A DNA stretch of 64,000 bases, taken from NCBI RefSeq assembly GCF_004123295.1, contig NZ_SDMK01000002.1, positions 764,784-828,783 on the forward strand, given 5' to 3'. The stretch is from Silvibacterium dinghuense. GTDB taxonomy: Bacteria; Acidobacteriota; Terriglobia; Terriglobales; Acidobacteriaceae. Position 1 is the first letter of the stretch, and each line of letters begins with the position of its first letter. A program made the position numbers and the translations under genes. Below the pieces are notes generated by a model that worked only from the letters and a program-made list of their open reading frames with translations, did no database searches and was not told the origin of the DNA. Below are positions 46,419-53,586 of the stretch, piece after piece.

Positions 46419-47228
46419 TCATTTTGCCTGCTGATCGTAGGTAAAAGTGTACTCCACGGAGACACTCGACTTGTTGTATCCCGGGGGCAGCGGCCCAAAG
46501 CTCTCGATGCGCTGAACAGCACGAACAGCAGAAGTATCAAGAGTCGGCGAACCGCTGCTATGGGAGATGCGGATATCGCTGGGCGTGCCGTCCCGGGCAA
46601 TGGTGAAAGTTACGTGCGCCTGGCTGCCCATCGGCGTCGAAGGCGAAACCTCGTAGAGGTACCAGGCCTGCTGCACTTTACGCTGGATAATCCCCACGTA
46701 ATACGGGTAGTTGAAGCCCTCCCCGCCGCCGGTGACATTCACCGGAGTGGGAGGACCGGGATTATTCACCATCGAGCGCGGCACCTGGGCGGGCGCAGCC
46801 TCACCATACTGGGCGCGGTGCTCCGCCGGGGTCGGCTGCACGTGCTTCGGAGTCTCTGGCTGCGGCTTCTTCTCTACCTTCTGCTTGGGCGGCGGTGGCT
46901 GCTTGACCGGGATGGGTACGGCATCCGGCGGTGGCGCAACCGGCTTCGGCTGAGGCTTGGGCGGCGCGGGCGAAGGCTGCTCGGTGGCCAGTACATTCGG
47001 CGTCGGCGGCTGATCCTGCGGCAGCGGAATGGCCGGCGCAGAGCTTACCAGTGTGGCCTGAATTGCGCCCGGAGCCTTGTTGTCGCCCCACTCCTGCCCA
47101 TGAAAGCGCCCGGAGAAATACGTATAGGCCGCGAGCAGCACCACAATCAGCACATGCAGGCCAAAAGACTTGGCCATGGGCGTGCCGAGCGGCTCGCGCT
47201 CCAGATCGATTGTCGTCCGCTGCGCCAT
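46419..47228 (-). CDS. TolA/TonB-family energy transducer of the Tol-Pal system
   Basis: A 269-residue protein with one N-terminal helix (LHVLIVVLLAAYTYFSG), a long Pro/Lys-rich periplasm-spanning region (PPKPQPKPVAPPPDAVPIPV ...), and a C-terminal TonB-C domain (YPYYVGIIQRKVQQAWYLYEV, VTFTIARDGTPSDIRISHSSG, VQRIESFGPLPPGY). It takes the place of TolA between TolR and TolB; a TonB-type C-terminal domain instead of the helical TolA domain III is the usual solution outside Proteobacteria. I start it at ATG 47228. It is 16 bases after the exbD/tolR gene. Confidence 0.9.
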   Translation of the reverse strand: MAQRTTIDLEREPLGTPMAKSFGLHVLIVVLLAAYTYFSGRFHGQEWGDNKAPGAIQATLVSSAPAIPLPQDQPPTPNVLATEQPSPAPPKPQPKPVAPPPDAVPIPVKQPPPPKQKVEKKPQPETPKHVQPTPAEHRAQYGEAAPAQVPRSMVNNPGPPTPVNVTGGGEGFNYPYYVGIIQRKVQQAWYLYEVSPSTPMGSQAHVTFTIARDGTPSDIRISHSSGSPTLDTSAVRAVQRIESFGPLPPGYNKSSVSVEYTFTYDQQAK

Positions 47229-47244
47229 CTCCCGATTCCCCGCC

Positions 47245-47670
47245 CTACCGTGCTCGGCCGTTCTGCATGGGCTGGGTGACAATGCTGATATTGGTGATGC
47301 CGGCCTGTTTGACCGCATCCATCACCGAGGCAAACGCACCGAAGGGCACTTTCTCATCCGCCTCGAGATAAATCACCTGGTGTGCGGGGTCCTTGCCCGA
47401 GCTCAGCAGCCTGCTGGTGAGATCGTTCAGGTTAATCGGCTTGTCCTGATAGAAGATCTCCGAGTCGCGGTTGATCGTGACGACCACGCGCTGCTCGGTG
47501 ATCTCCTTCACTGTCTTGGTTTTCGGGACATTGACCTCGATCCCCGACTGCAACACCGGAGCCGTCAGCATGAAGATGACGAGCAGCACCAGCACCACGT
47601 CGACCAGCGGCGTGATATTGATTTCCGACAGCGAGGTCTGAGTCCGCCCGTTGTTACTGGTGAAGGCCAC
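47245..47670 (-). CDS. tolR: TolR/ExbD-type proton-channel subunit
   Basis: A 141-residue protein with one helix (about residues 20-41, ITPLVDVVLVLLVIFMLTAP) containing the proton-carrying Asp24, and a periplasmic dimer domain (VPKTKTVKEITEQRVVVTINRDSEIFYQ ...). With TolQ it uses the proton gradient to energise TolA/TonB. GTG start; its first bases overlap the end of the tolQ gene by 17, so the two are coupled. Confidence 0.93.
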   Translation of the reverse strand: MAFTSNNGRTQTSLSEINITPLVDVVLVLLVIFMLTAPVLQSGIEVNVPKTKTVKEITEQRVVVTINRDSEIFYQDKPINLNDLTSRLLSSGKDPAHQVIYLEADEKVPFGAFASVMDAVKQAGITNISIVTQPMQNGRAR

Positions 47671-48436
47671 GCGCGGCCTCCCTCTCGACAGGATCCTGCC
47701 CAGGCCGGAGCGAAACCTCTTCCATGCTGTTCAGCAGTTCACGCGCAAAGTCGTCGTTGCGCGCAGCGAAGTCACGGCAGCGTGCCGTGAACTGGTTGTA
47801 GGCCACCACAGCCGGCACTGCGACCAGCAGGCCCGCAGCGGTTGTGATCAGCGCTTCCGAGACACCCGGCGCGACGGCACGCAGTGTGGCCGTTCCCGCC
47901 TGGCCAAGACCGTGGAAGGCCTCGACGATGCCCATCACGGTGCCGAACAATCCGACGAACGGCGAGATCGACGCAATCGTGGCCAGCCATGTCAGCCGGC
48001 TCTCCAGCGTCGTCAGCGATTCACTCGAAGCGGTCTGCGCAGCACGCTCAAGCGCGGTGATATTCCGCGGAGCGCCATAGCCGCCTGTCTGGCGCTTGTA
48101 GGTCTCATAGACCTCGTCGAAGACGCCGACCAGCGGACTGGGCTTGAATTGTTCACTCACCGTGGCAATTTCCTGCAGGCGCGTCGCTTTGCGGAAAGCA
48201 CGCAGGAATTTGCGGCTTTGCGTCGCGGCACGGCGGAAGCTGCTCCACTTGCCGAGGATGATGGCCCACGACCAGATACTGGCAATGAGCAAAATTCCGA
48301 GCACGGCAAGAGCGAGCGGGCCGCTATTGCGGAGCATCTCGAGGATGGCGCTTCCGCTATTGGTAACCGGAGGCGCGCCGGCATCGGCGTCGGATTGAAG
48401 AAGGAAGAAGGCTACTGTCGCAAACAGGGGTGTCAT
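47654..48436 (-). CDS. tolQ: TolQ/ExbB-type proton-channel subunit
   Basis: A 260-residue three-helix membrane protein (about residues 35-55 LALAVLGILLIASIWSWAIIL, 150-175 TWLATIASISPFVGLFGTVMGI, 195-215 ALITTAAGLLVAVPAVVAYNQF). The GLFGTVMGIVEAFHGL and TTAAGLLVAVPAVVAYN blocks are the MotA/TolQ/ExbB hallmark. Five copies surround a TolR dimer. Being next to tolA/tonB-like, tolB, pal and cpoB, it belongs to Tol-Pal rather than to iron transport. First gene of the cluster. Confidence 0.93.
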   Translation of the reverse strand: MTPLFATVAFFLLQSDADAGAPPVTNSGSAILEMLRNSGPLALAVLGILLIASIWSWAIILGKWSSFRRAATQSRKFLRAFRKATRLQEIATVSEQFKPSPLVGVFDEVYETYKRQTGGYGAPRNITALERAAQTASSESLTTLESRLTWLATIASISPFVGLFGTVMGIVEAFHGLGQAGTATLRAVAPGVSEALITTAAGLLVAVPAVVAYNQFTARCRDFAARNDDFARELLNSMEEVSLRPGQDPVEREAARGLHQ

Positions 48437-51637: not shown

Positions 51638-53044
51638 TTAGTTGCTCGATGGCGGTGGGGGTGGCGGAGGCCCCGCAGGACCATCAGCCAAGGTATAGAT
51701 CACATGGATCTGGGTTTCTACTTGCACCGGATCGCCGTTGAGCAGATATGGCTTGTAGGTCCAGTCCTTGACAGCATCCAAGGCTGACGACTGCAGTTCC
51801 TTCGGGCCTGATACTACTTTCAAGCCTTCGATCTTGCCATCCTTGCCGATAACCGCCTTGAGCACGACTGTGCCTTGAATCCTCTCCTTCTTTGCCTCTT
51901 CCGGATACTTCGGCTGGGTTCCGTTGATCTTGTTTCCGGCCATGACACCAGGTGCAACTGCAATCTTCTTCGGCGTTTTCGTCGGAGCCGCATCCTCGCT
52001 CTGCGCCGATATGGTGCTCCCATGCATCCCCAGCGCCAGGGCCGATCCGCACACGCCGACACCAAATGTTGCACAGGTGAGAACAATGGCCAGCCGCCGC
52101 GATCCGCGGATCTCATCGCGCTTTGCTGTCAATTTCATAAGTCTCCTTTCGAGAACGTTGGCATCGAAGAGCCCGATGGCGTGAGGGATAGGCAGCGGTG
52201 CGCCTTCGAGCAGAAGGGCAGCCAGCCGCAGGAGCGATCGCGCGTAATCCTTCGGCCCCGCAATCCCGGCGGCCATGGCATCGCAGACCATCTCCCGGGT
52301 CTCGGCAAGCCGCGTCCGGGTGAGAGCTGCGAGCGGGTGATAGCTCACCGGCAGCGCAACCAGCTGTAGAAGCAGGTTCACGAGGTAATCGTTGCGGCGC
52401 AGGTGCGCACACTCGTGCGCAAGTACCGCACGAAGGTCGCTTGATGGCAGATCAGAGAGCATTCCAGGAGGCAGAAGCACCCACCCGCGCCGTCCGCCGA
52501 GCGCCACCGGACCGTAGACCTTCGCAGATACCGCGATGGTCGCGTCTGTAACCTCGAAACGACCGGTACAGAGCGCCCAGGCCGAAGCCGCCTCGTCTCT
52601 AAGCTCGACGGGCGTGGCATCATGGCGGACACCCTCCAGCTTCCACCAGCTCCAGAGGAAACGGGCCGCGAACCACGCCATCGCCAGCGTATAGACAGCC
52701 AGCACCGTAGACAGCAGCGTTAACGAGAGGTGAGGCCCTCTGAGGATGGTCCCCGGCCCCTGCTCCACCGTGACCGCTGCCCCAAGCCGCACATTGCTGC
52801 CGCTCCAGAGCATCAGCCGATGCAGCCACTGCCACTCCTGCTGCCCGATATGCTCCCAGGGCAACATGGTCAGCGCCGGCAGCATGGTCTGGAGGAGCAC
52901 CACGCACAACCAGACGGCATGCTCCGCCGCGGCTCCGATGCGTCTCGCCAGCCGCGCCGCCACCCAGCCTGCACCGAGCAGCAGCGGCACCTGCCACAGC
53001 GAGTTCACGAGGTAGATCAGAATCCAGGATTCCACGCTCTTCAT
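51638..53044 (-). CDS. BlaR1-like M56 metallopeptidase with a TonB C-terminal domain
   Basis: A 468-residue membrane sensor-peptidase. The N-terminal half has about four helices (SLWQVPLLLGAGWVAARLARRI, HAVWLCVVLLQTMLPALTML ...) and the zinc motif HECAH (near residue 210, AVLAHECAHLRRNDYL). A helix (LAIVLTCATFGVGVCGSALAL, about 310-330) leads to a TonB-C domain (residues about 375-455, YPEEAKKERIQGTVVLKAVIGKDG, WTYKPYLLNGDPV), ending in a Pro-rich tail. The penicillin-sensing domain of BlaR1 is missing, so the signal is something else. Its ATG overlaps the blaI stop by one base (TGATG), so the two form one unit. Confidence 0.9.
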   Translation of the reverse strand: MKSVESWILIYLVNSLWQVPLLLGAGWVAARLARRIGAAAEHAVWLCVVLLQTMLPALTMLPWEHIGQQEWQWLHRLMLWSGSNVRLGAAVTVEQGPGTILRGPHLSLTLLSTVLAVYTLAMAWFAARFLWSWWKLEGVRHDATPVELRDEAASAWALCTGRFEVTDATIAVSAKVYGPVALGGRRGWVLLPPGMLSDLPSSDLRAVLAHECAHLRRNDYLVNLLLQLVALPVSYHPLAALTRTRLAETREMVCDAMAAGIAGPKDYARSLLRLAALLLEGAPLPIPHAIGLFDANVLERRLMKLTAKRDEIRGSRRLAIVLTCATFGVGVCGSALALGMHGSTISAQSEDAAPTKTPKKIAVAPGVMAGNKINGTQPKYPEEAKKERIQGTVVLKAVIGKDGKIEGLKVVSGPKELQSSALDAVKDWTYKPYLLNGDPVQVETQIHVIYTLADGPAGPPPPPPPSSN

Positions 53045-53436
53045 CAGGCTTCCTCCTCGCTGTCCAGCTCGCGGTGGAACTTCTCTGTCAGCTCGGCCAG
53101 CTTTTTCGCGTCGATCTGCCGGTTCTTGAGCAGGCTCATCACCAGCTCTTCGCTCGAGCCGCCGAACATGCGGTCTACCAGGTCGCGCACGCTCTGCCCC
53201 AGCGCCTTGGTCTCGGTCACGCGCGCCGAATACACATAAGCGCGCCCCTCGAGCTCGCGCTTCAGCTTGCCCTTGCGCTCGAGAATGTTCAGCATGGTCT
53301 GCACCGTGGTGTAGGCCAGCGGCGGCTCGAGCTCCGCCTGCACAGCACTGACCGTGCTCGCGCCCAACCGCCAGATCACCTGCATGATCCTCAACTCCAG
53401 CCGCGTCAGCTCCGCCTTCTTTGCCTCTTTCGTCAC
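53044..53436 (-). CDS. BlaI/MecI/CopY-family repressor
   Basis: A 130-residue winged-helix repressor. The DNA-binding part is residues about 8-75 (LTRLELRIMQVIWRLGASTVSAVQAEL, YTTVQTMLNILERKGKLKREL), and the C-terminal helices form the dimer (VRDLVDRMFGGSSEELVMSLL). In BlaI and MecI the partner peptidase cleaves the repressor near its middle when a signal arrives. GTG start with AGGAGG upstream. Two CTAA-N4-TTAG dyads flank the predicted promoter, so the unit probably represses itself. Confidence 0.9.
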   Translation of the reverse strand: MTKEAKKAELTRLELRIMQVIWRLGASTVSAVQAELEPPLAYTTVQTMLNILERKGKLKRELEGRAYVYSARVTETKALGQSVRDLVDRMFGGSSEELVMSLLKNRQIDAKKLAELTEKFHRELDSEEEA

Positions 53437-53442
53437 GACACC

Positions 53443-53458
53443 TCCTAACGAATTAGGA
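53443..53458 (-). promoter_or_regulatory. Predicted BlaI operator 1 (downstream of the promoter)
   Basis: Perfect dyad TCCTAA-cgaa-TTAGGA. It covers the ribosome-binding site of the blaI gene (AGGAGG on the minus strand lies at 53441-53446) and lies just downstream of the predicted -10. A third TTAGG half-site is at 53461-53465. The CTAA-N4-TTAG core recurs at 53488-53499. Confidence 0.65.
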
Positions 53459-53487
53459 CATTAGGCGCGGACAGCAGCCCCTGTCAA
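53458..53487 (-). promoter_or_regulatory. Predicted promoter of the blaI/M56 unit
   Basis: On the minus strand, a perfect -35 TTGACA (53487-53482) and a -10 candidate TAATGT (53463-53458) with an 18-bp spacer, or CTAATG with 17. It is flanked by the two dyads. Confidence 0.6.
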
Positions 53488-53499
53488 CTAAATTCTTAG
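53488..53499 (-). promoter_or_regulatory. Predicted BlaI operator 2 (upstream of the promoter)
   Basis: CTAA-attc-TTAG dyad directly next to the -35. Centre-to-centre it is 43 bp from operator 1, close to four helical turns, so two dimers could bind the same face of the DNA. Confidence 0.6.
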
Positions 53500-53586
53500 G
53501 ACTTATTGAAACAGGAGCAAAGCGAAACGCTCTCGCGGACGGAAAGAACCGGGAAAATCCTCGCATCCCGGCGCCGGGGCGAACCA

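Follow-up and report, generated by a model that had tools for sequence, protein, structure and literature searches.

What is sensed by a BlaR1-like protease when the C-terminal domain of TonB, and not a penicillin-binding domain, occupies its sensor slot? The question is raised by a two-gene switch of the soil bacterium Silvibacterium dinghuense (Acidobacteriaceae), which recalls the staphylococcal penicillin alarm but may monitor the import of nutrients through the outer membrane rather than drugs. BlaR1 is usually treated as a drug-resistance device, and automatic annotation of this unit as BlaR1 or as a resistance gene would mislead. The window, i.e. the whole stretch of DNA analysed, comprises 64,000 nt (NZ_SDMK01000002.1, 764,784-828,783). 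The features of the unit are given in Table 1.

Table 1. Features of the blaI-m56 unit and of its promoter; coordinates are window positions, and residues are those of the M56 protein.
Feature	Position	Strand	Basis
M56 metallopeptidase with C-terminal TonB domain, 468 aa	51638..53044	-	ORF list, Pfam, alignment, model
TonB_C domain, residues 376-452 (Pfam 376-451)	51689..51919	-	Pfam, comparison with host TonB
Fourth predicted transmembrane helix, residues 314-337	52034..52105	-	structure model
EMVCD (EXXXD third-ligand motif), residues 251-255	52280..52294	-	alignment; BlaR1-like spacing
HECAH zinc-binding motif, residues 210-214	52403..52417	-	H210, E211, H214 invariant, 21/21
BlaI/MecI-type repressor, 130 aa, GTG start	53044..53436	-	ORF list, Pfam, alignment
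Putative operator 2, TCCTAATTCGTTAGGA, over start region and ribosome-binding site	53443..53458	-	palindrome search, conserved in relatives
-10-like hexamer TAATGT	53458..53463	-	by eye
-35 hexamer TTGACA, 18 bp from -10	53482..53487	-	sequence reading, pattern search
Putative operator 1, TCCTAAGAATTTAGTT, immediately upstream of/touching -35	53486..53501	-	palindrome and pattern search

The blaI and m56 open reading frames share one base (at 53044). The repressor matches Pfam Penicillinase_R (E 5.6e-30), and the 468-aa protein matches Peptidase_M56 (residues 30-277, E 8.6e-21) and TonB_C (E 5.1e-21), each above the curated cut-off. When the protein is aligned with 20 acidobacterial M56-TonB_C relatives, all of which keep the architecture, the residues H210, E211, H214, D219 (the conserved aspartate nine positions past H210), E251 (37 residues past H214) and D255 are invariant in 21/21 sequences, as are the hallmark residues of the TonB fold (P378, Y380, P381, G391, G403). 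A chance ORF or an artefact is therefore rejected. An earlier, sequence-only reading of this DNA had described a BlaR1-like M56 protease, paired with BlaI, in which a TonB-C domain follows a helix in the sensor slot. The Pfam matches and the 21-sequence conservation agree with this domain order, the helix corresponds to the fourth predicted transmembrane helix (TM4), and the pairing is borne out by the adjoining Penicillinase_R gene and the intact M56 site.

An AlphaFold model of moderate quality (10 sequences; mean pLDDT 71.7, pTM 0.58) predicts helices at residues 3-33, 38-57, 108-142 and 314-337; an alpha/beta domain follows the last of them. Its top Foldseek match is BlaR1 (8exs, E 2.3e-6), followed by the TonB chains of BtuB:TonB (2gsk) and FoxA-TonB (6i97), with TM 0.81-0.83 by target length. 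With a 21-sequence profile, the N-terminal part matches S. aureus BlaR1 (8exs, E 2.1e-15, aligned with its residues 30-316) and the C-terminal part matches solved TonB domains (2k9k, E 1.7e-14; 6i97; 2gsk). According to an excerpt of PMC3356374, BlaR1 has EXXXD 37 residues past the second His of HEXXH, its protease loop in the cytoplasm and its C-terminus on the outside. Because of this topology and of the four predicted helices, the C-terminus of the M56 protein is placed outside; we infer a cytoplasmic protease loop and a TonB_C domain on the predicted periplasmic side. A TonB domain facing the cytoplasm, which the sequence-only reading had held to be incompatible with its proposal, is unsupported by the four-helix prediction.

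No penicillin-binding (class D-like) sensor was found in the M56 protein with Pfam, TonB_C standing in its place, and the protein scores 51 bits with NCBIfam blaR1_generic, whose cut-off is 400; a beta-lactam sensor is rejected for these reasons. As the defining sensor is missing and the score is that low, the unit is not a BlaR1 member in the strict sense; from its sequence, it appears to act like one. No beta-lactamase gene was recognised beside it. The residues of the window BlaI aligned with the cut site of S. aureus BlaI, N101-F102, are S-L.

Two palindromes (TCCTAAN4TTAG; core CTAA-N4-TTAG), 43 bp apart, flank the blaI promoter; operator 2 touches the -10-like hexamer and overlaps the ribosome-binding site. 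In the window 0.15 cores are expected, and 0/100 shuffles had two. The whole 5.1-Mb genome contains 7 cores, two exact TCCTAAN4TTAGGA sites plus one with one mismatch, and one op1-TTGACA site even when 2 mismatches are allowed. Among 37 acidobacterial/verrucomicrobial blaI promoters (21 fetched by the operator pattern; 16, i.e. the window and 15 others, by protein similarity alone), 29 have two exact cores, 7 have one and 1 has one-mismatch copies only; the 29 pairs are spaced by 42-47 bp, except one at 58. The 16 promoters fetched by similarity include 11 with two exact cores, 4 with one exact core and a one-mismatch second, and 1 with two one-mismatch cores. Since the palindromes frame the blaI promoter, are kept by relatives and have a core found only 7 times in the genome, the unit is very probably self-repressed by BlaI through these two putative operators.

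The pattern was also searched in 150 genomes of the family, 19 of which hold a full-length M56-TonB_C relative (hand count of matches spanning both domains). TCCTAAN4TTAGGA (operator 2) is present in 17/19 genomes with the fusion vs 9/131 without (Fisher, 4e-14). By itself this strict pattern is no rarer than its backward control (37 vs 33 places, hand count); 24 of the 37 places are upstream of blaI (hand count). The signal lies in the location of the sites, not in their number. Operator 1 with the -35 (TCCTAAN4TTAGTTGAC) was found at 28 places in 26 genomes, vs 1 for the backward control; 25 of these places precede a blaI-M56 pair. Some genomes, including G020, G066 and G141, gave no full-length fusion, yet have the operator at a sister blaI-M56 pair. 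The exact core is absent from five paralogous blaI promoters of the S. dinghuense genome (L008-L012). It is found in 3/8 Bacteroidota blaI promoters (L042, L045, L067), and the regions upstream of blaI in L042 and L067 have two cores 20 bp apart; the presence in these two loci extends the core past Acidobacteriota. Two operator copies in inverted order, located between a parB-like ORF and a 257-aa ORF (L106:4015-4052, L108:3966-4003), may represent a hairpin and not a site of control.

A single exact extended site lies outside the unit in the S. dinghuense genome; it precedes the gene of an exported 467-aa protein (C1:716095) without Pfam match. This protein is found in 2/9 genomes of the genus, S. 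dinghuense and G066; in the latter, where no full-length fusion was found, no core lies within 7 kb around its gene. At other loci, the operator is found, together with a TTGACA box, ahead of the gene of a DUF3738-like stand-alone protein (named by eye; L103:3697-4542, G020), and also ahead of small exported ORFs (L181, L184). A wider regulon in the host genome is rejected in view of the 7 cores, few extended sites and single op1-TTGACA site. A conserved operon partner is also rejected: no gene neighbour is kept among 28 loci, one 7-locus family running antisense to blaI. As neighbours are not conserved and further targets are almost absent, the output appears to be mostly the unit itself, with few other targets visible. 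Read by eye, the ORFs that surround the unit gave no recognisable ECF sigma or anti-sigma gene.

The genome contains 15 TonB_C matches in various settings; the domain alone therefore names no ligand. Residues 358-452 of the M56 protein are 71% identical, over 95 positions, to one stand-alone TonB of the same genome, the similarity starting at residue 358; the gene of this TonB directly precedes ExbB/TolQ-type and ExbD/TolR-type genes (TonB-ExbB-ExbD-type operon). A TonB_2/ExbD/ExbB (or Tol-like) cluster is located at window positions 46419-48436, some 3 kb away from the unit. A tree was built of 108 TonB domains (84 columns, many open forks; row L027, labelled stand-alone, is an M56 gene with a broken frame). 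The M56-linked and the stand-alone domains of Acidobacteriota are found on one side of a 100/99 branch, and those of Bacteroidota (plus one Ignavibacteriota) on the other. The acidobacterial side includes the Verrucomicrobia row, and its stand-alone TonBs are nested among M56-linked domains. This grouping suggests that the M56-linked domain stayed near the TonB of each lineage or was exchanged with it.

The domain differs from TonB in its attachment. The linker that separates the predicted helix from the TonB domain has a median of 29 residues (range 12-41) in 33 acidobacterial M56 rows, which include repeats of a few genomes and in which both values of 12 are miscalled helices (L109, L112), vs 115 (111-122) in 12 stand-alone acidobacterial TonBs; the median is 65.5 in 26 Bacteroidota rows. 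There are 3 prolines in the 32-residue linker of the window protein vs 26 in 115 in the host TonB. The D-box (ExbD) pattern was found in 0/21 M56 linkers, but likewise in 0/5 stand-alone TonBs. The spacer of TonB is considered to stretch across the periplasm (excerpt of PMC10907165). With a linker about a quarter as long as that of stand-alone TonB, the fused domain probably works near the inner membrane, and it is doubtful that it simply reaches the outer membrane as TonB does. This length bears on the proposal of the sequence-only reading that a state of the outer membrane or of a transporter, rather than a drug, is sensed: a plain reach to the outer membrane is weakened, whereas the absence of a penicillin-binding domain agrees with the proposal and a Ton-related ligand is likely because of the identity to the host TonB, the Plug pieces described below pointing the same way.

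Held near the inner membrane, the TonB domain could alternatively report envelope stress by catching the exposed N-terminal strands of receptors that fail to reach, or to assemble in, the outer membrane. The short linker and the many receptors of the genome (47 Plug matches) are consistent with this, and the PDZ domain of DegS, which catches OMP tails, is a precedent (excerpt of PMC7593790); with no recognisable envelope-repair gene carrying the extended operator in the S. dinghuense genome, it is nevertheless unlikely.

Other evidence on the ligand comes from Bacteroidota. In two Pedobacter proteins (L045, 3588-5531; L047, 3585-5546), TonB_C is followed by the C-terminal half of the Plug domain of TonB-dependent receptors, the match passing the cut-off in L045 (E 1.9e-5) and falling short of it in L047 (E 8.7e-4). 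In L045, L047, L056 and L062, a strand such as LNEVTVVGY, similar to the start of SusC plugs, is placed behind TM4 and ahead of the last or next-to-last TonB_C. Of 26 M56 proteins counted in 7 Bacteroidota genomes, ten without TonB_C were scanned for Plug: two have two stretches each of its C-terminal half (L214, 1057-2598, E 2.5e-10; L224, 568-2268, E 1.4e-10), one has a single such stretch just below the cut-off (L218, 733-2283, E 8e-5), two have a weak (L222, E 0.002) or very weak (L219, E 0.12) match, and five have none. Judging from these TonB_C and Plug matches, the sensor slot in M56 proteins of Bacteroidota is occupied either by the TonB half or by the receptor half, or by the two together. 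No M56 protein with Plug was seen in the S. dinghuense genome; of the independent hints at a signal tied to the Ton interaction, the Plug pieces are the best, although they come from another phylum. They also favour the receptor side over a domain that pairs with the TonB or ExbD of the host and reports the state of the motor. Such pairing would accord with the near identity to the host TonB and with the heterodimers formed by the periplasmic domains of TonB and ExbD (excerpt of PMC11658791); as the membrane-near proline-rich spacer is also missing from the M56 protein, it is quite unlikely.

The architecture is not restricted to this locus. A genome scan returned 56 loci, 31 of which hold an ORF with HExxH then TonB_C; 28 of the 33 such ORFs (those identical between loci being counted once) adjoin BlaI. 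In one of the 33, L063:5332, EXXXD is missing, and this ORF probably does not encode an M56 protein. A Pfam scan of nine of the Bacteroidota ORFs and of L109, which belongs to the family of the host, gave M56 plus TonB_C in all ten. BlaR1-like logic is coupled to Ton-system domains in Acidobacteriota, Verrucomicrobiota (one locus) and Bacteroidota, and M56-TonB_C is a widespread form of BlaR1 logic with another sensor. Domain databases list this architecture; no recognisable description of an M56-TonB_C protein was found in the open-access literature searched. It is possible but somewhat unlikely that M56 proteases form a broad class of sensors of the Ton system, taking TonB_C or Plug from the Ton system of their own host as periplasmic sensor and converting Ton traffic close to the inner membrane into destruction of a repressor; TonB-dependent receptors would then have a second route to transcription besides cell-surface signalling.

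Variants of the unit were also found. The S. dinghuense genome encodes a second M56-TonB_C protein (L011:6319-7899), with a more distant TonB domain and without an operator of this type. Its other M56 proteins include three with DUF3738 in the sensor slot (L008:5961-7697, L010:4712-6550, L010:6560-8365), the two of L010 being encoded in tandem beside a 980-aa receptor-like ORF, and one without known sensor (L009:6438-9599); about 50 bp past the gene of the latter begins that of a trypsin-PDZ protease, with a CTAAN4TTAG core right past its start codon. The verrucomicrobial copy (L029:4986-6334) consists of two ORFs, one for M56 and one for TM4-TonB_C, which overlap at ATGA; this is a real split or an assembly frameshift. 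Tandem M56-TonB_C genes follow one blaI in L021:3630-6341, and two TonB_C domains are found in the proteins of L025:4965-6647 and L119:4466-6205.

The preferred reading, held tentatively and at slightly less than an even chance, is a self-repressed BlaR1-like signalling unit with a TonB C-terminal domain as sensor. BlaI would occupy both palindromes and hold down expression of the operon. Lying in the periplasm close to the inner membrane, the TonB domain would bind the partners of TonB: TonB-box/plug strands of TonB-dependent receptors, which might be in transit or unprotected (the 47 Plug matches are possible partners), or TonB/ExbD. Altered binding would shift TM4, which would switch on the cytoplasmic M56 protease; its activity would remove BlaI, and the unit and a few other genes would rise. 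We infer each of these elements, i.e. the periplasmic position, the repression by BlaI, the activation by a change in binding to the TonB domain and the removal of BlaI. The short linker, the S-L at the BlaI cut, the near absence of targets and the origin of the Plug pieces in another phylum argue against this reading. With the TonB domain as sensor, bacteria would have an unstudied means of monitoring transport across the outer membrane or the assembly of receptors, and the operators allow a simple reporter test.

Two further explanations are very unlikely. Peptidoglycan binding is reported for a TonB tip, a point in favour of a domain that senses, or anchors to, the cell wall, which would be nearer to the theme of BlaR1. 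An excerpt of PMC3356374, citing another reference, states that BlaI systems may respond to wall fragments; against this, the extended operator precedes no recognisable wall gene of the genome and nothing in the sequence favours such a sensor. It is equally improbable that TonB_C is only a docking or dimerisation module of an M56 protein otherwise triggered, or not acting on BlaI: sister M56 proteins with coiled-coil-like tails (L030, L031) behind the same operators imply that the circuit needs no TonB domain, and the BlaI cut site is not kept, but the hallmarks of the TonB fold are invariant in 21/21.

The preferred reading may be compared with four known systems. BlaR1/MecR1 with BlaI/MecI (MEROPS M56) share with the unit the gene pair, the four predicted helices, the HEXXH-37-EXXXD spacing, the repressor family and a C-terminal sensor placed after TM4; they differ in having a penicillin-binding domain where the window protein has TonB_C and an N-F cut where the window BlaI has S-L, and the classical BlaI/MecI operator differs from the CTAA-N4-TTAG of the unit. 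The TonB energy transducer has the same TonB_C fold and hallmark residues, with the 71% identity over 95 aa given above; in the M56 fusion, the N-terminal TonB anchor and the proline-rich spacer are missing, and the domain is fused to a protease by a linker of about 30 instead of about 115 residues. Cell-surface signalling (TonB-dependent transducer, anti-sigma, ECF sigma; FoxA/FoxR) would likewise tie the periplasmic part of a receptor to proteolysis and transcription; the window unit uses the TonB half, not the receptor half, as sensor and a repressor, not a sigma factor, sigma and anti-sigma genes not being seen by eye. In a case described in the abstract of PMC11637429, the receptor signalling domain protects the anti-sigma factor from proteolysis as long as the signal is absent, which is a precedent for the coupling of receptor state to proteolysis. 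DegS/RseA also combines an inner-membrane protease with a periplasmic peptide-binding domain; in the window unit the protease site is predicted to be cytoplasmic, the repressor is soluble and the domain is TonB_C, not PDZ.
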